This document shows positions 1-35,287 of a DNA stretch of 64,000 bases, one piece after another (within the stretch, counting starts at the first letter, position 1; each line of letters opens with the position of its first letter). The DNA is from Lachnospiraceae bacterium (GTDB lineage Bacteria > Bacillota > Clostridia > Lachnospirales > Lachnospiraceae): the NCBI GenBank assembly GCA_022768465.1, contig JALELZ010000005.1, forward strand, positions 124,001 through 188,000. The letters are read 5' to 3'. Below the pieces are notes generated by a model. It was not told where the DNA came from. It worked only from the letters and a program-made list of their open reading frames with translations, and did not search any database. Made by a program: the position numbers and the translations under genes.

Positions 1-909
1 AGTGTCGGCAATGTACCTTTTGCCGCAACTATAGGTACACCTGTTCCTGCAGTGATCGCAACGGATTACCACGCACTTAAGCACATGAGCGAAAGACGTA
101 CAGGACTTACGACCTTAAGCATAGATACCTCAGGCATGGAGCTTTATGATACCGGTGCCTCAAAGGCATACCTTGAGCTTTTCAGTGAATTCACCAAGGA
201 CTCTCAGGTTTATGATAAAGCTGTAATAGCTAAGGACGAAGCAGCAAAAACTGCCTATAACGGTTACACAGGCATATTAGGTGCAAATCCTATAGATATG
301 AGCAGCCGTGAAATAAAGAGCTTTTTCTCTGACGCACTTTCAAACGACAAAATATGCTGTTTTTCTATGGGAGACGGGCTTGATGCAGTACGTGCTGCAG
401 GCAATATGGCTGAAAACATTGTCGTATCGCCTTCCGGAATAAAAGCTGCTGAGTTTATCAAAAGAAAATTCGGCGTACCTTATAAAATCAGCTTCCCTGG
501 TGCAGAGCATATTTTAAAGGCAGCTGTTAATGCTTTAGGACTTTTTAACACCAAAGATACTGAAGTTAAAGTTAAAGCTACTGCTGACACAGCTTTCTAT
601 AAATGCTTTGATAATAAGAACGTACTTATTATTCACCAGGATGTGCTCTCCTGCGCTCTTAAAGAGCTTATTAACGATCACTCAAATGCAAAGGTCACTA
701 CAGCCTGCTGGTTTAAGACAGTGTCCGATAAAACCATCAAGCTTCATGATGAGCATGACCTTTCAGAGCTTATCAAAAAGCTCAATCCGGATCTTATCAT
801 CGGAGACATAGATATGAAGCCGCTTTGTGACAGTACCGGCATTGAGGTAAGCTTTATTGATCTTCCTCATTTTGCAGTCTCCGGAAGACTCATGGAGGAG
901 CTGTTATGA
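1..909 (+). CDS. Nitrogenase component 1-like protein, C-terminal part (5' end outside window)
   Basis: The reading frame is open from base 1, so the gene begins upstream; about 302 residues are visible. The pattern of alternating strands and helices, with a Gly-Thr-Pro segment near the visible start (TIGTPVPAV) and a final LIIGD / FIDLPH stretch, is that of the C-terminal Rossmann-like domains of the NifD/NifK superfamily. It resembles the other two component-1-like proteins at 6476 and 8050 in type, not in close sequence. The stop codon overlaps the hypF start (ATGA at 906-909), so the two are probably translationally coupled. The P-cluster-type cysteines would lie in the missing N-terminus and cannot be judged. 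The family call is by eye; the function is unknown. Confidence 0.7.
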   Translation, partial: SVGNVPFAATIGTPVPAVIATDYHALKHMSERRTGLTTLSIDTSGMELYDTGASKAYLELFSEFTKDSQVYDKAVIAKDEAAKTAYNGYTGILGANPIDMSSREIKSFFSDALSNDKICCFSMGDGLDAVRAAGNMAENIVVSPSGIKAAEFIKRKFGVPYKISFPGAEHILKAAVNALGLFNTKDTEVKVKATADTAFYKCFDNKNVLIIHQDVLSCALKELINDHSNAKVTTACWFKTVSDKTIKLHDEHDLSELIKKLNPDLIIGDIDMKPLCDSTGIEVSFIDLPHFAVSGRLMEELL

Positions 910-3518
910 CAGCCGAAGTCATTACCAGAAGGATAAGAGTATACGGAATAGTTCAGGGCGTAGGCTTTAGACCCACAGTAGCCCGTCATGCCAATGTCTC
1001 CGGCATAAATGGCACTGTCATCAATAAGGGCTCATACGTTGAGATAATAGCTCAGGGCTCTGAAAAAGCATGTGACTTATTTCTGGAGCTGCTAAAAAAA
1101 GAGCCTCCAATAAGAGCTTATATTATTAAGATAAGTGTACAGGAGCTTGGAAAATTCAAATTTGAAGATAACGCTAATGAAGCCGCCGCTTCTGAAGAAA
1201 GCAACAACCTTCCGCTTTATAACAGCTTCACGATAGAAGAAAGTGAGCATACAGACGGAGATATTTACATCTCCCCTGATATCGCCATATGTGATGACTG
1301 CAAGCGTGAGCTTTACGACAAAAATAACCGCAGATATCTGCATCCTTTTATAAACTGCACTAACTGCGGGCCACGTATGACCATACTTGATGCACTTCCT
1401 TATGACAGAGAGCGTACTAGCATGAAGGTCTTTCCTATGTGCCCGGAATGCTCAAAGGAATACCATTCCCGCGGCAACAGGCGCTTTGATGCTCAGCCGG
1501 TCTGCTGCAATAACTGCGGCCCTGAGGTATATATCCTTAATAAGGAAAGCGGAAAGCCTGATGAGGCTCTTACAGGCAGTGCAGCTATAACGTATTCAAG
1601 ACGTATCATAAGTAACGGCGGTATCATTGCCGTAAAGGGCATAGGCGGCTTTCATCTTTGCTGTGATGCTTCTAATGAAAATGCCGTAAAACTGCTGAGA
1701 GAAAGAAAGCATCGGCCTTCAAAGCCCTTTGCTGTAATGATGCATGATATCAATACCGTTAAACGCGAATGTGTGGTTACCGACAATGAAGCTAAGGAGC
1801 TTGAAGGTCACAGAAAGCCTATAGTTCTCCTTGAAGGCAGAAAAGATGCACATTGCCGCATTGCTTCGTCGGTTGCTCCCGGCAATCCAAAGCTTGGAGT
1901 CATGCTTCCGTATGCACCTGTACAGCTGCTGCTTTTTGATTATAATGACGGTATAGCAATGCCTGACTGTCTCGTTATGACAAGTGCCAATGAATCCGGC
2001 GCACCTATATGCCGTGATGACAATGACGCATTAAATGAGCTTTCAGAGCTTGCTGATGCTATACTCTCAAACAACCGACTTATAAGAGTCCGCGCAGACG
2101 ACACGGTTACAGACTTTTTTGAAGATAAGCCTTACATGATAAGACGTTCAAGAGGCTTTGCCCCTCTCCCTGTCATGTTTACAGGAACTACTGACGAGAC
2201 ATTGTCAGAGTCAGCTAAGAATGATGCTGAAAATGCCTCATGTGCTTTACCTGCATCACAGGTCAGTGATATCTGCGAAATCAGAAAGCACTCTGTGCTC
2301 GGCATAGGCGGTGAGCTTAAGAACAGCTTTTGTATAGGAACCGGCAATCTTTTCTATAGCTCTCCTTACATAGGCGATTTAGGAGATATAAGGACCATCA
2401 CTGCCTTAAGAGAAACCATCAGCCGTTTTATGACATTACTTGAGACAAGCCCTGAGGCTATTGCCTGCGACATGCATCCGCTTTATCAGTCAAGAAATCT
2501 TGCCTATGAAATTTGCAGGGAATTGGAAAGCGCAAAAGTCCGAGACAGTAAGCACTCGTCAATAAGGCTCTTTGAGCTCCAGCACCATTATGCACATGTG
2601 CTTTCCTGTATGGCAGAAAACAATGTCGATGAGGCAGTAATAGGTGTTTCATTTGACGGAACAGGCTATGGCACCGATAAAACGATATGGGGCGGCGAGC
2701 TTCTTATAAGTGACTGGAACGGCTTTCTTCGTGCCGGACACATTTCGCCCTTTATACAGGTCGGCGGAGATGCATCCTCCAAGGAAGGCTGGCGCATAGC
2801 TGCTCAGATGATATCAGACCTATATAAAGAGTCAGCCGCCTCTGAAAAGTCAGCTTTCTTCGCATCATCGGAGTATTCTGATGCTGATAAAAACATTTCT
2901 GATATAAGCGGTAACGAAGTTATAAAGAATTTGGAGCTTTGCTCAGAGCAGGAGTTTAAGCTCATAGGCACAATGGCTAAACGAGGCATAAACTCTGTTC
3001 GCTCAACAAGTGCAGGACGTCTCTTTGATGCTGTAAGTGCAGTTCTTAATATTAAAAGGGCTTCAAGCTTTGAGGGTGAGGCCTCAACAGCTCTTATGTA
3101 TGCCGCATCAGCGTATCATAAGAAACATGAAGATTACTGTAATACAGACTTTCCTTACAGTCTTATCGATGTAAATGATGACGGCAGCATTGAAATGAAT
3201 ACAAGAGCCTTATTCAGATATATAACGGATGGAATACTTAACGGTAAAGATATAGGTAAGCTCGCTTATGATTTCCACTTAATACTGTCGGATATGACAG
3301 CTGCAGCCGTTATCAAAATATCAGAGCTTACAGGCATCAGAAAAGCCGCTTTGAGCGGGGGCGTTTTCCAGAATACACTGCTCCTTTCTCTTGTAAAGGA
3401 TGCTCTCACAAAATCCGGTATAACTGTACTTACCCATAGTCTTATACCTCCTAATGACGGAGGCATAGGCTTAGGTCAGGCCGTATATGCCATGAAACAA
3501 TTAAATAAAGATTCATAA
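906..3518 (+). CDS. hypF: Carbamoyltransferase HypF
   Basis: HypF makes the carbamoyl group, from carbamoyl phosphate, that becomes the cyanide ligands of [NiFe] hydrogenases; it passes it to the C-terminal cysteine of HypE. Domains in order: acylphosphatase-like (about 8-100, motif YGIVQGVGFRP), two zinc fingers (C129/C132 with C151/C154; C179/C182 with C201/C204), a YrdC-like nucleotide-binding domain (about 220-410) and a Kae1-like carbamoyltransferase domain with the HHYAH metal motif near residue 561. At 870 residues it is longer than the usual roughly 750; the excess is Ser/Ala/Glu-rich inserts near 90-105, 425-455 and 640-675. It overlaps the upstream gene by 4 bases and is followed by hypC after 42 bases. 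Confidence 0.95.
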   Translation: MTAEVITRRIRVYGIVQGVGFRPTVARHANVSGINGTVINKGSYVEIIAQGSEKACDLFLELLKKEPPIRAYIIKISVQELGKFKFEDNANEAAASEESNNLPLYNSFTIEESEHTDGDIYISPDIAICDDCKRELYDKNNRRYLHPFINCTNCGPRMTILDALPYDRERTSMKVFPMCPECSKEYHSRGNRRFDAQPVCCNNCGPEVYILNKESGKPDEALTGSAAITYSRRIISNGGIIAVKGIGGFHLCCDASNENAVKLLRERKHRPSKPFAVMMHDINTVKRECVVTDNEAKELEGHRKPIVLLEGRKDAHCRIASSVAPGNPKLGVMLPYAPVQLLLFDYNDGIAMPDCLVMTSANESGAPICRDDNDALNELSELADAILSNNRLIRVRADDTVTDFFEDKPYMIRRSRGFAPLPVMFTGTTDETLSESAKNDAENASCALPASQVSDICEIRKHSVLGIGGELKNSFCIGTGNLFYSSPYIGDLGDIRTITALRETISRFMTLLETSPEAIACDMHPLYQSRNLAYEICRELESAKVRDSKHSSIRLFELQHHYAHVLSCMAENNVDEAVIGVSFDGTGYGTDKTIWGGELLISDWNGFLRAGHISPFIQVGGDASSKEGWRIAAQMISDLYKESAASEKSAFFASSEYSDADKNISDISGNEVIKNLELCSEQEFKLIGTMAKRGINSVRSTSAGRLFDAVSAVLNIKRASSFEGEASTALMYAASAYHKKHEDYCNTDFPYSLIDVNDDGSIEMNTRALFRYITDGILNGKDIGKLAYDFHLILSDMTAAAVIKISELTGIRKAALSGGVFQNTLLLSLVKDALTKSGITVLTHSLIPPNDGGIGLGQAVYAMKQLNKDS

Positions 3519-3560
3519 TCATTTTCAGATATAAAATCATTTGCTTCGGAGGATAAAAAA

Positions 3561-3782
3561 ATGTGTGTAGGATTATCAGCTAAGGTCGTAAAGGTGCAGG
3601 ACGGAATGGCGCTTATCGATGCAGACGGCGCAAGACGTGAGGTTTCCGCCAAGATGCTCGACAGCCTTGAGCCGGGTGACTATGTAATGGTTCACGCCGG
3701 CATTGCTATAGCAAAGATAACCGAGGATGACGATGAGCAGTCAGACGAGCTCATCGAAGAACTTAATGAGGGGATCATCTGA
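3561..3782 (+). CDS. hypC: Hydrogenase assembly chaperone HypC
   Basis: This is a small OB-fold chaperone of 73 residues that holds the Fe(CN)2CO unit with HypD and hands it to the hydrogenase large subunit. The essential Cys2 is present (MCVGL, where most HypC proteins have MCLG), followed by the usual beta-strand pattern and the GDYVMVHAGIAI segment. The tail is acidic (EDDDEQSDE). A good ribosome site (GGAGG) lies 9 bases before the ATG. The stop codon overlaps the hypD start by one base (TGATG), typical of tightly coupled hyp operons. Confidence 0.93.
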   Translation: MCVGLSAKVVKVQDGMALIDADGARREVSAKMLDSLEPGDYVMVHAGIAIAKITEDDDEQSDELIEELNEGII

Positions 3783-4825
3783 TGAAAAACGAACAGCTCA
3801 AAGCTATTATTGAAAATTACAACGGCCCTAAGCTCCGTATAATGGAGGTCTGCGGTACACATACACATGAGATTTTCAGACTCGGCATCAGGAAAATACT
3901 TCCGCCTTCAATAGAGCTTATATCAGGTCCCGGATGTCCTGTATGTGTAACACCTGTCAGCTTCATTGATGAGGCTGTCATGCTTGCTCTTGAATATAGC
4001 TGTACCGTCTGCACCTTCGGTGACCTTGTCAGAGTTCCCGGAACCAAGATGAGCCTTGCCGGTGCAAGAGCTGAGGGCGGCAAAATACATATAGTATACA
4101 GTCCTATGGATGCAGAAATCCATGCCAAGGAGCATCCTGAGGAGCAGGTCGTATTCCTTTCTGTCGGATTTGAGACTACTACCCCGGCAAGCTGCCTTGC
4201 AGTATCTATGGCTGAGGAGGACGGCATAGATAACTTCTCACTGCTAACGGCAAATAAGACCATGCCTTCTGCTTATGAAATGCTAAAAGACTTCGTTGAC
4301 GTTTACCTATATCCTGGACATGTCAATGCTGTAATGGGCAATGCAGAATGCAGAAAGCTTGCAGAACAGGGCATCAGCGGAGTAGTATCCGGCTTTACAG
4401 CAAATGAGCTGCTCTCTGCACTTGCCGTATCAGTCGTAAAGTCACAGCAGGGAAAACCTTTCTTTGTTAATGCCTATCCGAGAGTAGTTACTGAAGAAGG
4501 AAGTCCGGCGGCAAGGGCTATGATGGATAAATATTTAGAGACCTATGACTGTGAATGGCGCGGTCTCGGTATCATCCCTGCTTCCGGCAAGAGACTTAAG
4601 GATGAATATGCTGCATATGATGCAAGAAAAAAATATTCTCTTCCTAAGGTAGAAGGTCACGGCAATCCGGCCTGCCGCTGCGGCGAGGTACTGCAGGGCA
4701 AAATAAAGCCTTCAGACTGCCCTTGCTTCGGTAAAGCCTGCAACCCTATGCATCCTGTCGGAGCCTGCATGGTTTCTAACGAAGGTGCCTGCTCTGCCTA
4801 CTATCAGTACGGCGAGGAACTGTAA
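3782..4825 (+). CDS. hypD: Fe-S protein HypD of [NiFe] hydrogenase ligand assembly
   Basis: HypD is the [4Fe-4S] scaffold on which the iron receives its CN and CO ligands. Signature motifs are all visible: CGTHTH at residues 24-29, GPGCPVCVT with C52 and C55, and the cysteine-rich C-terminal cluster segment (CRCGEVLQG, DCPCFGKAC, GACMVS). Length is 347 residues, normal for the family. It lies one base inside hypC and 39 bases before hypE, so hypC-hypD-hypE form one unit. No defect is seen; all residues known to be essential for the scaffold appear to be kept. Confidence 0.95.
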   Translation: MKNEQLKAIIENYNGPKLRIMEVCGTHTHEIFRLGIRKILPPSIELISGPGCPVCVTPVSFIDEAVMLALEYSCTVCTFGDLVRVPGTKMSLAGARAEGGKIHIVYSPMDAEIHAKEHPEEQVVFLSVGFETTTPASCLAVSMAEEDGIDNFSLLTANKTMPSAYEMLKDFVDVYLYPGHVNAVMGNAECRKLAEQGISGVVSGFTANELLSALAVSVVKSQQGKPFFVNAYPRVVTEEGSPAARAMMDKYLETYDCEWRGLGIIPASGKRLKDEYAAYDARKKYSLPKVEGHGNPACRCGEVLQGKIKPSDCPCFGKACNPMHPVGACMVSNEGACSAYYQYGEEL

Positions 4826-4864
4826 GCATTTTAAGCACAATTAAAGATAAACGGAGAAATTATC

Positions 4865-5884
4865 ATGGATAATAAAAATACTGCCGAAGTCATAACTCTT
4901 GCACACGGTGCCGGAGGACATCAAACTTCAGAGCTGATAGATAAAGTATTTAAAGCACATTTTTCAAATCCTGACCTTACCGCAGATGATGCGGCAGTAC
5001 TTGCTGCACCTAAGGGACGTATGGCAATGACTACTGATGGCTTCATCGTCTCTCCTGCATTTTTCCCGGGAGGAAATATAGGAAAGCTCTCCATATGTGG
5101 CACGGTTAATGACCTTGCCTGCATGGGAGCAAAGCCATTATACCTTTCCTGCGCCTTTGTAATTGAAGAAGGCTTTCCGATGGAAAAGCTTGAGGAAATA
5201 GCTGCAGCCATGGAAAAAACTGCTGCCGAGGCAGGTGTCAGAGTTGTATCAGGAGATACCAAGGTTGCAGGTAAAGGACAGGTCGACGGAGTATTCATAA
5301 CAACTACAGGAGTCGGTGAGATAAGAGAAGGCGTTGAAACCTCAGGAACACTTGCAAAGCCTGGCGATGCAGTAATTGTTACCGGAGACATCGGAAGACA
5401 CGGCTGCACAATACTGCTGCAGAGAGAAGATTTCGGTATTGAAGCAAATGTGACCAGCGACTGCGCACCGCTTTGGGGCACAGTAAATGCACTGCTTGAT
5501 GCAACAAATGACATACATGTAATCCGAGATGCCACAAGAGGCGGTGTAGGAACAGTGCTCTATGAAATAACAGGACAGAGCAACGTCGGCATAGAACTTA
5601 ATGCATCAGCAATCCCGGTAGCACCGGAAGTAAAGGGAGTATGCGGAATGCTTGGACTTGAGCCGCTCTACCTTGCCTGCGAAGGCCGTCTGGTCATCAT
5701 CGCACCAAACGACAAGGCCGAGCTCATACTTGAAACACTAAGGAAACAGCCATACTCACAAAACGCTGCAATCATAGGAACAATAACCGCAGACCATCCG
5801 GGCAAGGTAGTAATGGAAACAGAAATAGGCGCAAAAACCGTCCTCTCCCAGCCGGGCGGAGAACTCCTGCCGAGGATATGTTAA
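4865..5884 (+). CDS. hypE: Carbamoyl-dehydratase HypE
   Basis: HypE takes the carbamoyl group from HypF on its C-terminal cysteine and dehydrates it with ATP to a thiocyanate, the CN donor. The sequence ends in PRIC, so the required terminal Cys339 is present. The N-terminal glycine-rich HGAGG motif, DDAAV and the VSGDTKV segment are those of the PurM/AIR-synthase fold. Length 339 residues is typical. The gene is the last of the hyp block; eight bases after its stop a complex inverted-repeat element begins. hypA and hypB (nickel insertion) are not in the window. Confidence 0.95.
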   Translation: MDNKNTAEVITLAHGAGGHQTSELIDKVFKAHFSNPDLTADDAAVLAAPKGRMAMTTDGFIVSPAFFPGGNIGKLSICGTVNDLACMGAKPLYLSCAFVIEEGFPMEKLEEIAAAMEKTAAEAGVRVVSGDTKVAGKGQVDGVFITTTGVGEIREGVETSGTLAKPGDAVIVTGDIGRHGCTILLQREDFGIEANVTSDCAPLWGTVNALLDATNDIHVIRDATRGGVGTVLYEITGQSNVGIELNASAIPVAPEVKGVCGMLGLEPLYLACEGRLVIIAPNDKAELILETLRKQPYSQNAAIIGTITADHPGKVVMETEIGAKTVLSQPGGELLPRIC

Positions 5885-5892
5885 AGCTTTGA

Positions 5893-6021
5893 GAAGAGCA
5901 TCCGGTGATTTAAATAAGTATGGAGGGAAGCTTGCTTACCGAAATACTTATTTAAATCACCAGTTGTTCGGCGAATGCCGAACAACGAGAAAAATCTGAA
6001 AGATTTTTCGAGATGCTCTTC
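5893..6021 (+). repeat. Three-armed structured intergenic element (copy A)
   Basis: The outer inverted repeat is GAAGAGCATC (5893-5902) with its complement at 6012-6021. Inside are three hairpins. Arm 1 is a perfect 18-bp stem (5904-5921 with 5944-5961) with tip GGAGGGAAGCTTGCTTACCGAA. Arm 2 is a perfect 10-bp stem (5963-5972 with 5977-5986, loop GAAT). Arm 3 is a 9-bp stem (5989-5997 with 6001-6009, loop GAA). The arm order and tips correspond to the elements at 25033 and 37674. It sits directly downstream of hypE. There is no coding potential and no terminal T-run, so it is not a simple terminator. Confidence 0.75.
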
Positions 6022-6176
6022 GTCATCAACCACATAGCCTTATGTTTTGCAAATGCGAAGCAACGAAAAAATCTGAAAGATTTTTTGAGATGCTCTTCGC
6101 CATAAAACACATAACTTTACGTTTTTGCAAATGCGAAGCAGCGAGGAAACCTGAAAGGTTTTTCGAGATGCTCCCC
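5973..6176 (+). repeat. 78-bp tandem repeat, about 2.6 copies
   Basis: The right half of the preceding element (second half of arm 2, arm 3, outer arm, then an AT-rich spacer) is repeated with an exact 78-bp period: units start at 5973, 6051 and 6129. The small hairpin is kept in all three. In the third unit its stem has changed on both sides (AATCT-GAA-AGATT to AACCT-GAA-AGGTT), a compensatory change that keeps pairing. The last unit degrades into the leader of the next gene. This fills most of the gene-free stretch 5885-6207. Confidence 0.8.
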
Positions 6177-6207
6177 TTCTCTATTTTAATGAAGAAAAGG
6201 ATCACCA

Positions 6208-6471
6208 ATGTGCACTGAAGACTCAAAAACCCGTGTCGCAGTTATCGCAGTCATAGTTGAAAATAACGCAGCGACCGATTCTATCAACGAATTGCTCCAT
6301 GAAGCCGGACAATACATCATTGGCCGCATGGGCATACCATACAGAGAAAAAAATATAAATATTATAAGCATTGCCATCGATGCTCCGCAGGATATCATCA
6401 GCTCGCTCAGCGGCAGGTTAGGGCGCATCGAAGGAGTTTCAGTAAAAACCGCTTATTCAAACATTTTCTGA
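6208..6471 (+). CDS. TM1266-type small protein (putative iron-only hydrogenase system regulator)
   Basis: This 87-residue protein has a beta-alpha-beta ACT/ferredoxin-like pattern: strand RVAVIAVIVE, helix with INELLHEAGQYI, the conserved GRMGIPYREKNINIISIAID block and a final helix SLSGRLGRIEGV. That block is typical of the family annotated as iron-only hydrogenase system putative regulator (TM1266), which commonly lies beside hydE, hydF and hydG. No DNA-binding domain is visible, so regulation is only a family label. The ribosome site AAAGGA lies 9 bases before the ATG. The next gene begins 4 bases after the stop. Confidence 0.85.
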   Translation: MCTEDSKTRVAVIAVIVENNAATDSINELLHEAGQYIIGRMGIPYREKNINIISIAIDAPQDIISSLSGRLGRIEGVSVKTAYSNIF

Positions 6472-6475
6472 TAAT

Positions 6476-8059
6476 ATGAACGATAATACATCGCCAACAA
6501 AAGAATATTCTGTATCCGCCCGTGATGCGGCTTTTCCAAAGCCGTTTTATCAGGGGCTTGAATTTAATTCTCCCGCTCACGGCAATTGGAACATTGTCCA
6601 TATAGGAATGCTTCTGCCTGAGGCAAGACAGATCTATGTATGTGCTGATAACTGCATGCGAGGCGTTGTTCTGACCGCTGCAGAGATGAATGCAGAGGAC
6701 AGATTTTCCTTTGTTCTTCTTGATGAGGCAGACATGACAGTAGGCAATCTTGAAGATGTAACGATTGAAGGTGTTTCAGCCTGTATAGATAAATTGGACT
6801 CACATCCTCCCGTTGTCCTGCTTTTTACTGTATGCGTGCATCATTTCTTAGGCTGTGATCTGGACTACGTATACCGCAAATTAGGCGAAAAATATCCGGA
6901 TATATATTTTGCGCGCTGTTATATGGATCCTCTCTTACAGAAGACCAGGCCTACTCCGGATCAGAAGCTTAGACTTGCAATGTATGAGCCGATAAAGGCA
7001 TTGCCGGTAAACAGGCACACAATAAGTCTTATAGGCAGTGAGCTTCCGTTATACAAAAGCAGTGACCTATATAAGCTTATAGAGCTTGTCAGCGGAAGCC
7101 CGGCATCAAACGCGGACTCATGCATCTATAACCCTGTGCTAAAGGGTCTCGCTCCCGAATACTTTACCTCTGCAGATAATTTAAGCATTTCCGGCAGTGC
7201 GGCCTTAGGCTCAGCAGCTCAACTCTCCTGCCGCAGCACAGCAGCCGGCAGCGACATAGAAAGTACAGCACCTTCTTCATCTGATTATGAAAATAATATC
7301 GAGCTTAAGGAAATTTCCTCCTGTACAAGCTTTGATGATTATCTGACCATGGGAGAAAGCGCTTTATTTATCGCAGACTTCCCGGGTGCACTTATGGGAC
7401 TTGAGGCATTAGGAAAGCGTTTGGAACGGCCTTATCTTTATCTTCCTATGAGCTTTAGCTTTGATGAGATCAAAGGTCTGTGGAGCAGCTTTGCACAAGC
7501 ACTTTACTCATACTGTATCAAAGGTTCAAAGGCAAACGCGGAATGCACTTTGCCGGATCACATTCAAAAGCTTATCCTTACAGATATTGAAAAGCAAAAA
7601 GCCCTATGTGAAAATGCCCTTTCATCTCTCAGAAGCCTTATCGGCGATACCGAAATACGTATCGACTATGTATTCCATCCGAGACCTTTAGGGCTTGCAA
7701 GACTTCTCCTTGAGCATGGTTTTAATGTAAGTACAGTATACATTGATGTCATAAGCACAGAGGAAGAAGCTGATCTTGATTGGCTTAAGCAAAATGCTCC
7801 TGATATGCTTCTTAGCTCAACGGTGCAGGTCGAAGCCCGTAGCAGGAAAAGAAATCGTCCCGATGTATTGGCTATAGGTCAGAAGGCTGCCTGGTTTTCC
7901 GGCACCGCACATTTTGTAAATGCTGTATACGGCGCAGGGCTCTGGGGCTTTGACGGTATCTTAAGGCTTTGCGATCTCATGGAACAGGCTTACAGAGAGG
8001 AAAAGGATACAAAGGATCTTATTACCCGCAAGGGCTGGGGGTGTGCAAGTTGCGTATAG
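6476..8059 (+). CDS. Nitrogenase component 1-like protein (527 aa)
   Basis: This is a large protein with the NifD/NifK-like arrangement of repeated Rossmann-type domains. Visible are an N-terminal segment with PAHGNWNIVHIGML, a strand PPVVLLFTVCVHHFLGCD followed by an aromatic-rich FARCYMDP, a Ser/Ala-rich linker around 235-275, and a C-terminal domain with FLADFPG/YLPMSF-like strands. It ends in a CxxC tail (C523, C526, then Val). The cysteines do not match the standard NifD ligand set, so a cofactor cannot be predicted. The start has no clear ribosome site and follows the previous stop by 4 bases, suggesting coupling. It overlaps the next gene, its likely partner subunit. Confidence 0.75.
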   Translation: MNDNTSPTKEYSVSARDAAFPKPFYQGLEFNSPAHGNWNIVHIGMLLPEARQIYVCADNCMRGVVLTAAEMNAEDRFSFVLLDEADMTVGNLEDVTIEGVSACIDKLDSHPPVVLLFTVCVHHFLGCDLDYVYRKLGEKYPDIYFARCYMDPLLQKTRPTPDQKLRLAMYEPIKALPVNRHTISLIGSELPLYKSSDLYKLIELVSGSPASNADSCIYNPVLKGLAPEYFTSADNLSISGSAALGSAAQLSCRSTAAGSDIESTAPSSSDYENNIELKEISSCTSFDDYLTMGESALFIADFPGALMGLEALGKRLERPYLYLPMSFSFDEIKGLWSSFAQALYSYCIKGSKANAECTLPDHIQKLILTDIEKQKALCENALSSLRSLIGDTEIRIDYVFHPRPLGLARLLLEHGFNVSTVYIDVISTEEEADLDWLKQNAPDMLLSSTVQVEARSRKRNRPDVLAIGQKAAWFSGTAHFVNAVYGAGLWGFDGILRLCDLMEQAYREEKDTKDLITRKGWGCASCV

Positions 8060-9468
8060 AAAATTCATACAGAATAATTCCCTGCTATACAGCGGACGTT
8101 TCCGGAGTCTGCTCTGCCCTTTATGAGCTTGGCGGTATGGTCGTAATGCACGACCCATCCGGCTGTAATTCTACCTATAATACTCACGACGAAACCCGTT
8201 GGTATGATAATGACAGCCTGATCTATATAACCGGACTTACCGAAATAGATGCCATAATGGGAAATGACAAAAAGGTGGTTAGAGATGTCACAGATGCGGC
8301 TAAAAGACTTTCACCTAAGTTTATAGCTCTGTGCGGCTCGCCTATACCTTTTCTTAACGGTACAGACTATAATGCCATTGCCGCTCTGATAAAAAAGGAA
8401 TGCGGTATATGTACATTTGCAGTTGAAACAAACGGCATGCACGATTATATAAGAGGTGCAGGCGCAGCTTTAAGACGTTACTCCGAATGCGTAATGAAGC
8501 CTCTTTGGGACAAAGTCCTCATTCAAAAAAACATACACCATGGTGCCAATATTGCAGAGAGCACACACTGCTTAAACAAGGATTTTGTCAATGAAAATAT
8601 CTCACAAAAATCCGGGTTTAACTCTGTAAGCAGCTCACCTTTGTACAAAATAAATACCGATATATCGCAAACTTTGTCGGAACATGCCGAAATTTATCCA
8701 CATTGTTTTGATAAATCAAACAAAAATCACAATGTAGTTATCAACATTTTAGGCGCTACTCCGCTTGACTTTGCTGTTGAAAGCTCGGTTTGTTCACTAA
8801 AAAACGCATTAATCAACAGAGATATCCACATTTTGACATGTTTTTCTGCATCTTGTGGTGAAGATGTTGACAAATTGCAAAATGCCGTTCTTGCAGATGT
8901 TAACCTTGTTGTTTCGGCTGTCGGCATGCCTATGGCCGAATATATGTATGAAGAATACGGCATACCTTATGTCATAGGAATACCCGTCGGAGATTTTGCA
9001 GATACGCTCTGCCGTGATATTAAGAGAGCCGCTTCCGATAAGGTTCCGTGCATTGTATCTTATAATGATGCACGAATGCAGTTTGCAAAAAGCAGCTCAG
9101 TACATATAAATGATAATGCTAAGCTTCCTCTTGCCGTAATAGGTGAGGCTGTCACCATGGGTTCATTAGCTGCAGCATTATCCATTCGCTATAATATCCC
9201 GGTCAGCGTGCTTTGCCCGCTTGAGGATTCAGATGCACTGCTTTCATCCTCTGACTTTAAATTCCGCGGTGAAGACCAATGTACCTACCTTATGAAGCGG
9301 TTTGAGCACGTTATAGCAGATCCGTTATATCTTCCTATATGTCCTAAAGAAACTACGCTTTACCGACTTCCGCATGAAGCATTTTCAGGAAGATGCTGCC
9401 GGCAGGAAATGAAGGATATATTTTTATATCCCGATGAATGGCCGGATAAATTTCAAATTAAACTATAG
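8050..9468 (+). CDS. Nitrogenase component 1-like protein (about 473 aa)
   Basis: The N-terminal block PCYTADVSGVCSALYELGG, then HDPSGCNSTYNTHDE, is the clearest component-1 signature in the window. The H-x-P-x-GC element corresponds in position to the NifD/NifK segment carrying a P-cluster cysteine, and SGVCSALYEL holds another cysteine. Later segments (LCGSPIPFLNGTDY, FAVETNGMHDY, AVGMPMAEYMYEEYGIPY) fit the nitrogenase/oxidoreductase component-1 family. I chose TTG at 8050, which has GGGGGTG six bases upstream; GTG at 8041 is the alternative. Either start overlaps the previous gene. Its clostridial relatives are usually labelled nitrogenase component 1, with no established reaction. Residues about 175-225 are low in conservation, a likely linker. 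Confidence 0.85.
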   Translation: MRIENSYRIIPCYTADVSGVCSALYELGGMVVMHDPSGCNSTYNTHDETRWYDNDSLIYITGLTEIDAIMGNDKKVVRDVTDAAKRLSPKFIALCGSPIPFLNGTDYNAIAALIKKECGICTFAVETNGMHDYIRGAGAALRRYSECVMKPLWDKVLIQKNIHHGANIAESTHCLNKDFVNENISQKSGFNSVSSSPLYKINTDISQTLSEHAEIYPHCFDKSNKNHNVVINILGATPLDFAVESSVCSLKNALINRDIHILTCFSASCGEDVDKLQNAVLADVNLVVSAVGMPMAEYMYEEYGIPYVIGIPVGDFADTLCRDIKRAASDKVPCIVSYNDARMQFAKSSSVHINDNAKLPLAVIGEAVTMGSLAAALSIRYNIPVSVLCPLEDSDALLSSSDFKFRGEDQCTYLMKRFEHVIADPLYLPICPKETTLYRLPHEAFSGRCCRQEMKDIFLYPDEWPDKFQIKL

Positions 9469-9478
9469 AGGATAAAAA

Positions 9479-10738
9479 ATGGGACTTAACGATACACCTT
9501 CCGGAGAGCGTGTACATATAGGCTTCTTCGGATGCAGAAACGCCGGCAAATCAAGCCTTGTAAATGCCGTAACAGGTCAGGAGCTTTCTGTGGTTTCAGA
9601 CATTCTCGGCACTACTACGGATCCGGTTAAAAAGACAATGGAGCTTCTGCCTTTAGGCCCTGTCGTCATAATCGACACTCCGGGTTTTGACGACAGCGGC
9701 AGTCTCGGAGAGCTGAGAGTAAAGAAAACAAGACAGATACTCGGTCAGACAGATATTGCAGTATTGGTGACCGACGCCTCAAGAGCGCCTAATGCATGCG
9801 AAAATGAGCTGATTGCTCTTTTTAATGAGCTCAGCATTCCTTATATAATTGCATACAATAAGTGCGATCTGCTTGAAAACAATGTACCTGATACATTTTC
9901 AGCAGTTCCTAAAGAGCGAAAGATATGTGTGAGTGCTCTTAAGGGTCAAAATATATACGAGCTTAAGGAGCTTATCGCATGGCTCATTAAGCCTGATAAA
10001 AATGAAGTATTCCTGTGCGGAGATCTGATTAAGCCCGGAGATATCGTGCTTCTTGTAATCCCTATTGATAAGGCCGCGCCTAAGGGAAGGCTCATACTTC
10101 CGGAGCAGATGGTCATCAGAGATGTTTTGGACAATGACGCCATACCGGTCTGCATCAAGGAAGACCGATTGGCTGAGTTTCTGGAAAGGCCGGGCTTTAA
10201 GCCGTCTATAGTGATTACAGACAGCCAGGTCTTTGGTCCGGTATCCAAAATAGTGCCTGAGGATATCCCGCTTACCTCCTTTTCAATACTTATGGCAAGA
10301 CATAAGGGACTTTTAAAAGAAGCAGTAAGAGGTGCAGCTGCACTTAAGGCAATGCATGATAGGACAGTAATGCCAAAGGATCATACCGAACCTACATCTA
10401 AGCCTTACCGCATACTTATCTCAGAGGGATGTACACATCACAGACAGTGCGATGATATCGGCACAGTCAAGATCCCACGCTGGCTTGATGAATATATCGG
10501 AGGTCCTTTAGATGTCTCCTTCAGCTCCGGCCAGCAATTTCCGGAGGATGTCAGCGGCTATGACCTCATCATACACTGCGGAGGCTGCATGCTTAATGAA
10601 AAGGAAGTATTGACACGCATGAAAAGAGCCGTGGCTCAGGGTACCGCAATAACCAATTACGGTATTGCCATAGCACAGTTTAAGGGTATCCTTAAGCGTT
10701 CAACGGCAATGCTTCCCGAAGTAAACGATCTGCTTTAA
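9479..10738 (+). CDS. hydF: [FeFe] hydrogenase H-cluster maturation GTPase HydF
   Basis: HydF is the scaffold on which the 2Fe subcluster of the H-cluster is assembled before transfer to HydA. The N-terminal Ras-like GTPase has Walker A GCRNAGKSS (18-26), a G2 threonine region (GTTTDP), G3 DTPG and G4 NKCD. The C-terminal domain has the Fe-S binding CTHH near residue 318 and HCGGC near 366-369, matching the HydF CxH...CxxC pattern. Length 419 residues is normal. It starts 10 bases after the nitrogenase-like gene with a GAGG site and is followed by hydE, so all appear cotranscribed. Confidence 0.96.
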   Translation: MGLNDTPSGERVHIGFFGCRNAGKSSLVNAVTGQELSVVSDILGTTTDPVKKTMELLPLGPVVIIDTPGFDDSGSLGELRVKKTRQILGQTDIAVLVTDASRAPNACENELIALFNELSIPYIIAYNKCDLLENNVPDTFSAVPKERKICVSALKGQNIYELKELIAWLIKPDKNEVFLCGDLIKPGDIVLLVIPIDKAAPKGRLILPEQMVIRDVLDNDAIPVCIKEDRLAEFLERPGFKPSIVITDSQVFGPVSKIVPEDIPLTSFSILMARHKGLLKEAVRGAAALKAMHDRTVMPKDHTEPTSKPYRILISEGCTHHRQCDDIGTVKIPRWLDEYIGGPLDVSFSSGQQFPEDVSGYDLIIHCGGCMLNEKEVLTRMKRAVAQGTAITNYGIAIAQFKGILKRSTAMLPEVNDLL

Positions 10739-10768
10739 GCATTTACATAATTATCAGAATAATTAATT

Positions 10769-11896
10769 ATGGACAGAATAAAACTTATAGATAAATTAAA
10801 TACTGCTCACGATCTTTCAGATGAGGAATTCTATCAGCTTATATTTCCGCTTTGCTCTGCAGGACTTAGTGAGGAGTCATCTCCGGATAATGCAGCATTA
10901 AAGGCTTATACTGATGCCGCTGCATGGACAAAGGATGAAGAAGATCATCTTTATATTACGGCACGTGAGGCAGCTGATGCAAATTACGGAAAAAGCGTAT
11001 TCTTAAGAGGTCTTATAGAATTCACTAATTACTGTAAAAATGACTGCTATTACTGCGGAATACGCTGCTCAAATAAAAATGCCGAGCGTTACCGTCTTAC
11101 GAAGGAAGACATTTTAAACTGCTGCGATCAGGGCTACTATTTAGGCTTCCGCACCTTTGTATTGCAGGGCGGTGAGGATCCGTTCTTTACAGATGAGCGC
11201 ATATGCGATATAGTTTCGGCAATAAAGCTTAAACACCCTGACTGCGCTGTTACGCTTTCCATAGGTGAAAAGGAGAGAGCCAGCTACCAGGCATATTTTG
11301 ATGCCGGTGCTGACAGATATCTTCTTCGTGAGGAGACCTCGGATAATGAGCATTATCATTATCTGCACCCGGATAGCTTAAGTATGAAGCACAGGCAGAA
11401 CTGCCTATTCACTCTTAAAAGCATTGGCTATCAGGTAGGCTGCGGCATAATGGTCGGATCACCTATGCAGACCCCTAAGGCTGTTATAAAGGATCTTCGC
11501 TTTATGCAGGAGCTTAAGCCTCATATGATAGGAATAGGCCCGTTTATCCCGCACAAGGATACAAAGTTTGCAAATATGCCCGCAGGTACTCTGACCGATA
11601 CACTGCATCTTCTCAGCATTTTAAGACTCATGTTCCCTGATATTCTGCTTCCGGCTACTACAGCTTTAGGCACCATACATCCGTTGGGGCGTGAAATGGG
11701 CATAAAAGCCGGTGCAAATGTAGTTATGCCAAATCTTTCTCCTACCGGAGTCAGAGGCAAATACCTGCTTTATGACGGTAAAATATGCACCGGAGATGAA
11801 GCTGCTGAATGCCGTATGTGCATGCAGCGACGCATAGAAAGTACAGGCTGTCACGTTGAGATCTCAAGAGGCGATCATTGCTCAGTATCACACTAA
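10769..11896 (+). CDS. hydE: [FeFe] hydrogenase radical SAM maturase HydE
   Basis: HydE is a radical S-adenosylmethionine enzyme that acts on the HydG-made iron-cysteine complex during formation of the H-cluster 2Fe unit. The CxxxCxxC cluster motif is at about residues 89-96 (CKNDCYYC), preceded by RGLIEFTNY. LQGGEDPFF, GIGPFIPH and PNLSPTGVRGKY are typical HydE blocks. Length 375 residues fits. The weak ribosome site and 30-base gap suggest translation coupled to hydF. HydG, the usual third maturase, is not in the window. Confidence 0.95.
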   Translation: MDRIKLIDKLNTAHDLSDEEFYQLIFPLCSAGLSEESSPDNAALKAYTDAAAWTKDEEDHLYITAREAADANYGKSVFLRGLIEFTNYCKNDCYYCGIRCSNKNAERYRLTKEDILNCCDQGYYLGFRTFVLQGGEDPFFTDERICDIVSAIKLKHPDCAVTLSIGEKERASYQAYFDAGADRYLLREETSDNEHYHYLHPDSLSMKHRQNCLFTLKSIGYQVGCGIMVGSPMQTPKAVIKDLRFMQELKPHMIGIGPFIPHKDTKFANMPAGTLTDTLHLLSILRLMFPDILLPATTALGTIHPLGREMGIKAGANVVMPNLSPTGVRGKYLLYDGKICTGDEAAECRMCMQRRIESTGCHVEISRGDHCSVSH

Positions 11897-33622: not shown

Positions 33623-34870
33623 TCACTCATAGAGCGGATATTTATTGCAGAGCTTTGTTACTTCTTCTCTGATATAATCTCTCTTATTTTCGAAGTCGGT
33701 TGCAGCCAGCCATATGCATTCAGCAACCTTCGGCATATCCTCTTCCTTTAAGCCTCTGGATGTAACTGCAGGTGTTCCGATACGAACTCCTGAGGTAACA
33801 AACGGACTGCGAGGATCATTTGGCACAGTATTTTTATTAAGTGTTATATATGCCTCATCACAACGGATCTGGAGCTCTTTTCCTGAAATGTCCATATTTC
33901 TGAGATCCACAAGCATAAGGTGATTATCGGTTCCTCCTGAAACTATGTCAAAGCCCTGCTTCATAAGCTCTGAGCAAAGTGCTGCGGCATTAAGCTTTAT
34001 CTGATGCTGATATGTCTTAAACTCAGGCTTAAGCGCCTCTCCGAAGCAAACAGCCTTAGCTGCGATAACATGCTCTAAAGGACCGCCCTGTGTTCCCGGG
34101 AATACAGCCTTATTGAAGTTGAATTTCTCAGCCGCTTCCTTATTGGCAAGGATAAGACCGCCTCTTGGACCTCTAAGTGTTTTATGTGTAGTAGTTGTTA
34201 CCACATCTGCATATGGGAACGGACTCTGATGCTCGCCAGCGGCAACAAGTCCTGCGATATGTGCTATGTCACACATGAGGTACGCTCCGCACTTATCTGC
34301 AATCTCTCTGAAACGCTTAAAATCTATGGTTCTTGCATAAGCTGAAGCTCCAGCAAGAATAAGCTTAGGATGGTGCTCCATAGCTAACTTTTCAACCGCG
34401 TCATAATCAATGAAACCGTCATCATTTACACCATAAGGAACTATATTAAAGAAAATTCCGGAGAAATTGACAGGGCTTCCGTGTGAAAGATGTCCGCCGT
34501 GATCAAGACTCATGCTGAGTACTGTGTCGCCAGGCTTAAGCATTGCAATGAATACAGCCATATTTGCCTGAGCTCCGCTGTGCGGCTGAACATTGGCATA
34601 GTCACAGCCAAAAAGCTTTTTTGCACGCTCTATCGCTATATTCTCAACTACGTCTACACACTCACAGCCACCGTAATAACGTTTTCCGGAATAACCTTCT
34701 GCATATTTATTTGTAAGAACTGTTCCCATTGCAGCCATAACCGGCTCAGAAACTATATTTTCAGATGCGATGAGCTCAAGATTTCTTCTCTGTCTTGCAG
34801 CCTCTGCCTCAATAGCCTTGCCCACCTCAGGATCATAGTCTGTAATAAATTTCATCACTTCATTTACCAT
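33623..34870 (-). CDS. glyA: Serine hydroxymethyltransferase
   Basis: This PLP enzyme interconverts serine + THF and glycine + 5,10-methylene-THF. The PLP lysine is in [16 protein letters not shown] near residue 229. [18 protein letters not shown] and [11 protein letters not shown] are typical SHMT blocks. It is 415 residues, complete; AAGGAGG lies 9 bases before the ATG. A glycine riboswitch lies in its leader, so expression appears linked to glycine level. Confidence 0.97.
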
Positions 34871-34955: not shown

Positions 34956-35003
34956 CCGGAAAATTTTAAGACAAATGATATAAGCACAAAAAATGCTTCT
35001 TCG

Positions 35004-35115
35004 TCTCTGTCCTTTCGCCTGAGAGATTCGGCAGCCGTAATGCTCTGTACTGATAGATATTCGCAATTACCTGCCTTACACCTTCGGCACCCTATAAAGG
35101 GATTCTCCAGAGTTC
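35004..35115 (-). ncRNA. Glycine riboswitch upstream of glyA
   Basis: The - strand has the conserved aptamer core: GGTGCCGAAGG (near 35090), a variable stem, then CTGCCGAATCTCTCAGGCG and AAAGGACAGAG at the 3' end (35004-35014). The P1 strands CTCTGGAGAA and TCTCTCAG...CAGAG enclose it. Only one full aptamer is seen. It lies 134 bases before glyA, with a terminator-like structure between them. Direction of control (on or off with glycine) cannot be read from sequence alone. Confidence 0.92.
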
Positions 35116-35287
35116 CCTCCGCATTCAGTTTCATTTAATGATTCTTAATGCTTCATTGGGAGCTATATGTTTTGTTGCTCTAAAAGATACACCTATTATA
35201 CTTAAAATTCAACAGCTTTTAGTTTCGTTTATTGTATAATTTAATGTGCATCATTATTAAAATCGATTTTTGTGAGTTTTTATTGTT

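Follow-up and report, generated by a model that had tools for sequence, protein, structure and literature searches.

How is the iron centre of an [FeFe] hydrogenase assembled in bacteria without HydG, the enzyme accepted as the standard source of H-cluster CO and CN? The question is raised by a 64,000-nucleotide stretch of DNA (hereafter the window; contig JALELZ010000005.1, positions 124,001 to 188,000, forward strand) from the genome of a Lachnospiraceae bacterium (GCA_022768465.1), whose first 11,896 nucleotides carry genes for the [NiFe] maturation proteins HypCDEF, the [FeFe] maturation proteins HydF and HydE and several proteins resembling nitrogenase component 1. When the upstream flank is included, the unit reads nifH–[D-K]–hypFCDE–TM1266–A–B–hydF–hydE, in which D-K is a fusion of two component-1-like domains and A and B are separate component-1-like subunits. 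In many gut bacteria and gas-fermenting clostridia, the H-cluster iron centre seems to be made without the enzyme that usually supplies CO and CN, and this conserved nitrogenase-like and cyanide-making gene set is a good candidate for a HydG substitute. Judging from sequence comparisons, we put the probability that it provides a HydG-independent route to the [2Fe] precursor at roughly 0.6. The data agree with the original prediction, in which the nitrogenase-like proteins would contribute to making a CN/CO-ligated iron unit; since HydG over its family cut-off is absent from the source genome and from 56 of 60 genomes that carry gene B, this general scaffold idea now takes the specific form of HydG substitution. 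The other option in that prediction, an undescribed oxidoreductase dependent on the two pathways, could also hold.

Gene B (8050..9468, forward strand) encodes a subunit with the signature HDxSGCNSTYxTHDExRW and a modelled nitrogenase component-1 fold, and its distribution was compared with that of HydG. Across 246 genomes of the order, matches exceeded the family cut-offs for HydA in 226, for HydE in 126 and for HydG in 113. Among the 126 genomes with HydE, gene B was present in 10 of the 16 without HydG and in 0 of the 110 with HydG (Fisher p = 4e-11, not corrected for kinship, the ten gene-B genomes representing six genera and three families); these are draft genomes and metagenome-assembled genomes, which makes absences uncertain, and one further genome (G018) was left out because its HydE fell below the cut-off. 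If the related nifH-D-K type of loci L065-L070 is counted as gene B, which adds genomes G156 and G026, the figures become 11 of 16 and 1 of 110. When 50 genomes from a wider collection of named genomes were added to the ten of the order, all 60 gene-B genomes had HydA, 56 had HydE and 4 had HydG; HydF was counted in gene neighbourhoods rather than in genome-wide searches. As a separate observation, about 100 of the 246 genomes of the order encode an [FeFe] hydrogenase catalytic domain with no HydE over the cut-off.

The association itself recurs well beyond the window. Of the 246 genomes searched with B, 27 gave a match, the 17 weaker of which were not counted as gene-B genomes; the ten that remain include the window's own, and nine of them also have HypD. 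Eighteen neighbourhoods were retrieved in the order and seven show the gene run, wholly or partly, its complete form being TM1266-hydF-hydE-nifH2-A-B-nifH1-D-K-hypFCDE. One genome (G238) carries H1, the NifH that goes with D-K, together with D-K itself (592 amino acids, shorter than the window's), A, HypF, HypC and HypD on one contig, B and HypE on a second and HydE on a third, with no HydG over the cut-off; the retrieved stretches showed no hydF, no TM1266 and no second NifH. The scan of the named genome collection yielded at least 576 relatives of B, of which the best 80 loci were retained. Their hosts belong to Lachnospiraceae, Oscillospiraceae, Coriobacteria/Atopobiaceae and Clostridium, acetogens among them, and include Clostridium ljungdahlii, C. 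carboxidivorans, Roseburia faecis and Coprococcus comes. The neighbourhoods of these 80 loci, many of which end at contig ends, contain A in 76 cases, HypE in 58, TM1266 in 51, HydE in 32, HydF in 31 and HydG in 0. Fifty of the 80 were searched genome-wide as a chosen subset, made up of 19 isolates, 11 importer-type (see below) or cut-short loci and 20 others. By B sequence, none of the ten genomes of the order is more than 71% identical to any of the 80, and no pair among the 50 shares 95%. In C. ljungdahlii (locus L121), D-K-hypFCDE-nifH-A-B lie in a single run, and no HydG was found in the genome. Because the same genes recur together across genera, families and phyla, the linkage exceeds chance, and a chance juxtaposition is rejected. 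The predicted link between the nitrogenase-like families and hyp and hyd genes thus holds across genomes, and the 12 kb upstream of the window contain no hypAB or hydG that would place an ordinary hydrogenase operon beside the cluster.

To see whether HydE is the same enzyme with and without HydG, we built a tree of 36 HydE sequences belonging to gene-B genomes or loci (the HydG search did not cover the genomes of 9), 20 sequences whose genomes carry HydG and that of G017, a genome discussed below. On this tree the gene-B label needs 4 changes, at least 2 of them forced by well-supported branches, and the HydE proteins found beside gene B form no separate clade. Moreover, the gene-B group and the HydG-genome group share 67 invariant alignment positions, and none separates them at 80/80. 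A gene-B-specific HydE with an altered substrate is thus disfavoured, finer differences being possible. Since HydE shows neither a clade of its own nor a separating position, the comparison fits a repeated replacement of HydG upstream of what would be an unchanged HydE.

We then turned to the rest of the source genome, which is 96% complete. It encodes one [FeFe] hydrogenase, of group B1, on contig 2 (606 bits; cut-off 450). A profile search of this genome found no HydG over the cut-off: the sole HydG-like match, considered as a hydG elsewhere in the genome, is ThiH (515 bits against ThiH, cut-off 380, vs 184 bits against HydG, cut-off 312), and none of the 16 radical S-adenosylmethionine (SAM) matches listed is HydG. 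Contig 30 (L176:3611-6108) encodes a 360-amino-acid membrane-type [NiFe] large subunit with CGIC and CFSC motifs, together with hypA and hypB and next to genes that we take to encode antiporter-like subunits. The hydrogenase genes, hypA and hypB, which the original prediction noted as absent from the window, lie outside it, on contigs 2 and 30, and hydG was not found over its cut-off anywhere in the genome. As the only hypD found in the source genome is that of the cluster, the HypCDEF proteins encoded there probably serve the contig 30 [NiFe] enzyme too.

Of the 60 gene-B genomes, 47 encode HypD. A [NiFe] large subunit is encoded by 15 and lacking in the other 45, and 32 of the 47 HypD-bearing genomes are among those without one. 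In 8 of the 15 genomes that have one, a further HypD lies within about 7 kb of it. HypD was found in 1 of 13 control genomes with HydE and HydG and, among the HydE-bearing genomes without HydG or gene B (n = 7, G018 included), only in G197. Ten loci (L102, L114, L119, L123, L129, L142, L143, L144, L147 and L153) show a second, importer layout, in which A, B and NifH are accompanied by a FecCD permease, a Peripla_BP_2 lipoprotein and an ABC ATPase, with hydE or hydF in most; in L114 (3468-4607), the case tested with Pfam, the ATPase is fused to a TM1266 domain. No hyp genes lie near these loci, and no hyp-bearing locus has all three importer components. Ten of the 12 importer-layout genomes searched have no HydG over the cut-off.

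For [NiFe] enzymes, the loading of cyanide on iron by HypC and HypD is established. In the route that we propose, HypF and HypE would make cyanide from carbamoyl phosphate, as described for these proteins (PMC6802093), and HypC and HypD would load it on iron. NifH-fed, ATP-driven component-1-like complexes, H1 with D-K and H2 with A-B, would then reduce or assemble the Hyp product, or another iron source, into an Fe(CO)x(CN) unit accepted by HydE, providing both the ATP-driven reduction and the binding site for Fe(CO)(CN) assembly; the cluster at the window has a single NifH gene, other NifH genes in the genome having been no search target. HydE and HydF would act as usual, and HydF would hand the [2Fe] unit to HydA, here of group B1. 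The constant element would be A-B with NifH, its usual partner HypCDEF with H1-D-K and its alternative partner a FecBCD-type importer. As for the origin of CO, one guess is the reduction of CO2 or of a formyl donor at the nitrogenase-like site. We regard this division of labour as tentative and, taken as a whole, doubtful. The broader proposal, that this is a second, independent pathway to the [2Fe] subsite in which nitrogenase-like complexes, as a rule together with HypCDEF and in some cases with an imported compound, would deliver the Fe(CO)(CN) unit that HydG produces elsewhere from tyrosine, seems to us evenly balanced between right and wrong.

A number of observations weigh against a HydG-independent route of this kind. 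The importer layout is the strongest point against a simple view in which HypCDEF replaces HydG: 11 of the 12 importer-layout genomes searched (two of the loci being cut short) have no HypD, and two of the 12, Intestinibacter bartlettii and the genome of L123, have HydG. HypD is likewise missing from G151, one of the ten genomes of the order, whose B most resembles that of an importer-type locus. Since importer-type genomes mostly lack HypD, HypCDEF cannot be the general source of CN and CO, and the constant companion of HydE and HydF where HydG is missing is A-B-NifH, not HypCDEF. Within the source genome, HypCDEF may merely serve the [NiFe] enzyme of contig 30. Four of the 60 genomes have HydG as well as gene B (the two just named, that of L076 and C. 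drakei), and in C. drakei HydG stands alongside H1, D-K, hypFCDE, NifH, A and B. No HydE was found in four of the 60 gene-B genomes, apart from a fragment at a contig end in one, and HydA by itself is weak evidence, being present in 226 of the 246 genomes of which only 126 have HydE. G017, which is 99% complete, has a TM1266-hydE-hydF operon (L177:10046-12543) with neither HydG over the cut-off nor gene B, possibly a third solution. Among the other genomes without HydG over the cut-off or gene B, G070 has HydE and a HydF cut at a contig end, G156 and G197 have a divergent HydE and weak HydG matches below the cut-off, and G162 and G196 are 58% and 89% complete. Furthermore, for most of the acetogens that it covers, a survey puts forward atypical HydG candidates (PMC9431212).

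These data can also be read in other ways. A-B (and D-K) could be an end reductase with an unknown substrate, using a CN/CO-ligated iron site made by HypCDEF and HydE/HydF, the loss of HydG being incidental. NifH with two component-1 subunits is the layout of the catalytic members of the superfamily (nitrogenase, DPOR and methylthio-alkane reductase), both A and B model as the component-1 fold, and the importer of the second layout could bring in a substrate; a related nifH-D-K set also occurs in six of the order's genomes, in four of which HydE does not reach the cut-off, and adjoins an importer-type binding protein in the one case tested. An end enzyme of this kind nevertheless sits poorly with a HydE that carries no discriminating residue beside gene B, with intact HydF and HydE motifs and with HydA in 60 of 60 gene-B genomes, and the inverse link to HydG would be unexpected if the product were unrelated to the H-cluster. 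We consider it unlikely.

Slightly less likely, in our judgement, is an auxiliary role in iron handling or regulation, in which the complexes would reduce an imported or stored iron chelate while an unrecognised radical SAM enzyme resembling HydG supplies CO and CN. The replacement of the hyp genes by FecCD, a Peripla_BP_2 lipoprotein and an ABC ATPase (TM1266-fused in the tested case) would suit such a role, and radical SAM proteins with atypical Cys motifs have been proposed in acetogens (PMC9431212). However, the nearest relative of HydG among the 16 radical SAM matches listed in the source genome is ThiH, and this explanation does not account for HypCDEF travelling with the cluster in genomes that have no [NiFe] subunit. 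The same 32 of 47 HypD-bearing genomes tell against the idea that ordinary [NiFe] and [FeFe] maturation genes have come to lie beside unrelated nitrogenase-like genes by chance, as does the recurrence of the association across three families within the order and well outside it; the [NiFe] large subunit, hypA and hypB on contig 30, with no other hypD found, would be in keeping with such an accident, which we think very improbable.

How, then, does the proposed HydG substitution relate to what is known? According to the current scheme, HydG produces [Fe(Cys)(CO)2(CN)] and hands it to HydE, for which a dimerising role has been proposed; HydF then finishes the unit and transfers it, and a synthetic [Fe2(SH)2(CN)2(CO)4] complex can bypass both HydG and HydE (PMC11736057). 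The set described here shares with this scheme the standard HydE, HydF and TM1266 proteins and the HydA target, whereas HydG is missing, as in 56 of the 60 gene-B genomes, and nitrogenase-like complexes, usually with HypCDEF, stand beside HydE and HydF. With regard to [NiFe] maturation by HypABCDEF, the HypC, HypD, HypE and HypF of the window are full-length with motifs intact, but HypA and HypB are encoded outside the cluster and no [NiFe] large subunit exists in 45 of the 60 gene-B genomes. NifHEN-like proteins next to hydrogenase maturation proteins, as two linked sets in Coprococcus catus GD/7 and also in other Firmicutes, were noted by Dos Santos et al. 2012 (PMC3464626), who suggested that they help to assemble an active-site metallocluster. 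Judged from that description, theirs is apparently the same gene association; the missing HydG, the cross-genome profile and the importer layout are not mentioned in the accessible part of their account. A 2022 survey (PMC9431212) reports HydE and HydF in eight acetogens, only three of which have a HydG by known motifs, in one case an atypical motif; five have HypCDEF but not HypAB. C. ljungdahlii is among those listed with HydE and HydF but no standard HydG, and its HypCDEF set lacks HypAB. The survey offers only hypotheses to explain this, among them atypical HydG-like radical SAM proteins and unidentified mechanisms of ligand incorporation.

Clostridium autoethanogenum is related to C. ljungdahlii. 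An active [FeFe]-hydrogenase complex has been isolated from it (PMC6288185); in an essential-gene study of the same species (PMC9004356), the main text does not contain the word 'nitrogenase' and the accessible passages name no hyp gene. PMC6802093 adds no more than general HydG and HypEF background, and PMC12934955 is unrelated to the subject. Our open-access literature search turned up no study of a gut group B hydrogenase maturase and no statement linking nitrogenase-like genes to the absence of HydG. As far as that search tells, it is new to join the known gene association and the missing HydG through the HydG profile and the importer layout. The cluster offers a specific, testable answer to the missing HydG in acetogens that have HydE and HydF, and its hosts include genetically tractable, industrially used Clostridium species as well as common gut genera. 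If true, HydG substitution would give the nitrogenase superfamily a new function, take HypCDEF chemistry outside [NiFe] enzymes, provide a new toolkit for producing active [FeFe] hydrogenases and join the nitrogenase, [NiFe] and [FeFe] cofactor worlds in one pathway that is common in gut bacteria.

By modelled structure, A and B belong to the nitrogenase superfamily. Single-chain models built without cofactors give both the component-1 fold, with chains of NifEN and DPOR among the top matches (for B, a predicted local distance difference test score of 82.6 and a Foldseek E of 5e-14 to NifEN). Subunit A (6476..8059) has a conserved CxxxC, a CxH and a C-terminal Cys, and matches no family; B reaches 46 bits against a NifE cut-off of 505 and 30 bits against the CfbD model (cut-off 268), and D-K, scanned in two pieces, reaches 77 bits at best against the NifE cut-off of 505. 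The NifH-like ATPase also falls below the family cut-offs, for NifH (304 bits vs 394), CfbC (299 vs 402) and BchL (200 vs 345). The proteins thus share with DPOR, CfbCD and NifEN, nitrogenase relatives that act in cofactor synthesis, the combination of a NifH-like ATPase with a component-1-like pair, but they lie far under the curated cut-offs of those families and their gene context is H-cluster maturation.

All of the hyp, hyd and component-1-like genes named in the original prediction are present, intact and on the forward strand, seven of their products exceeding curated NCBIfam cut-offs. Its first component-1-like gene is indeed component-1-like; it is not a separate gene, being the C-terminal part (1..909) of D-K, an 892-amino-acid fusion that matches PF00148 twice in one open frame with no internal stop. 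Inspection of the upstream bases showed that the D-K gene starts about 1.77 kb before the window edge and is preceded by a gene for a 252-amino-acid NifH-like ATPase, so that in place of the three component-1-like proteins first counted there are four component-1 domains in two pairs, plus NifH. Next come the genes for the carbamoyltransferase HypF (906..3518; TIGR00143, 669 bits, cut-off 466), the chaperone HypC with its N-terminal MC (3561..3782; TIGR00074, 63 bits, cut-off 48), the Fe(CN)2CO scaffold HypD with its Cys motifs (3782..4825; TIGR00075, 361 bits, cut-off 193) and HypE with its C-terminal PRIC (4865..5884; TIGR02124, 429 bits, cut-off 252). A TM1266-type putative regulator of the [FeFe]-hydrogenase system (6208..6471; TIGR03959, 115 bits, cut-off 61) precedes A and B, and the run closes with the GTPase scaffold HydF, which retains CxH...HCxxC (9479..10738; TIGR03918, 524 bits, cut-off 326), and the radical SAM maturase HydE, which retains CxxxCxxC (10769..11896; TIGR03956, 554 bits, cut-off 255). 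From hypF onward the intergenic gaps range from -10 to +42 nucleotides, the sole exception being 323 nucleotides before TM1266. This gap (5885-6207) contains three copies of a 21-nucleotide element and folds far above shuffled sequence (z -8.7); a known RNA was considered there, and no Rfam family matches.

Two further sets of loci are of interest. At L065-L070 the related nifH-D-K set (present twice in L065) has no hyd or hyp gene labelled nearby except a weak HydF-like match in L069, and at L067 it is followed by a Peripla_BP_2 binding protein, two more open reading frames being importer-like by size and order only; this is probably a different system. At L076 (4688-6016), an aspartate ammonia-lyase-type gene, a type associated with synthesis of the H-cluster bridge (PMC11736057), directly follows hydF, which adjoins A and B. 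As this genome also has HydG, the gene shows only the H-cluster context of gene B. Elsewhere in the window lie three Clostridiales-1 RNA genes (Rfam RF01699; 25037-25198, 37679-37841 and 37853-38013, two of them in tandem) and, on the reverse strand, a glycine riboswitch aptamer (34997-35120) upstream of a same-strand open reading frame of 415 amino acids (33623-34870).

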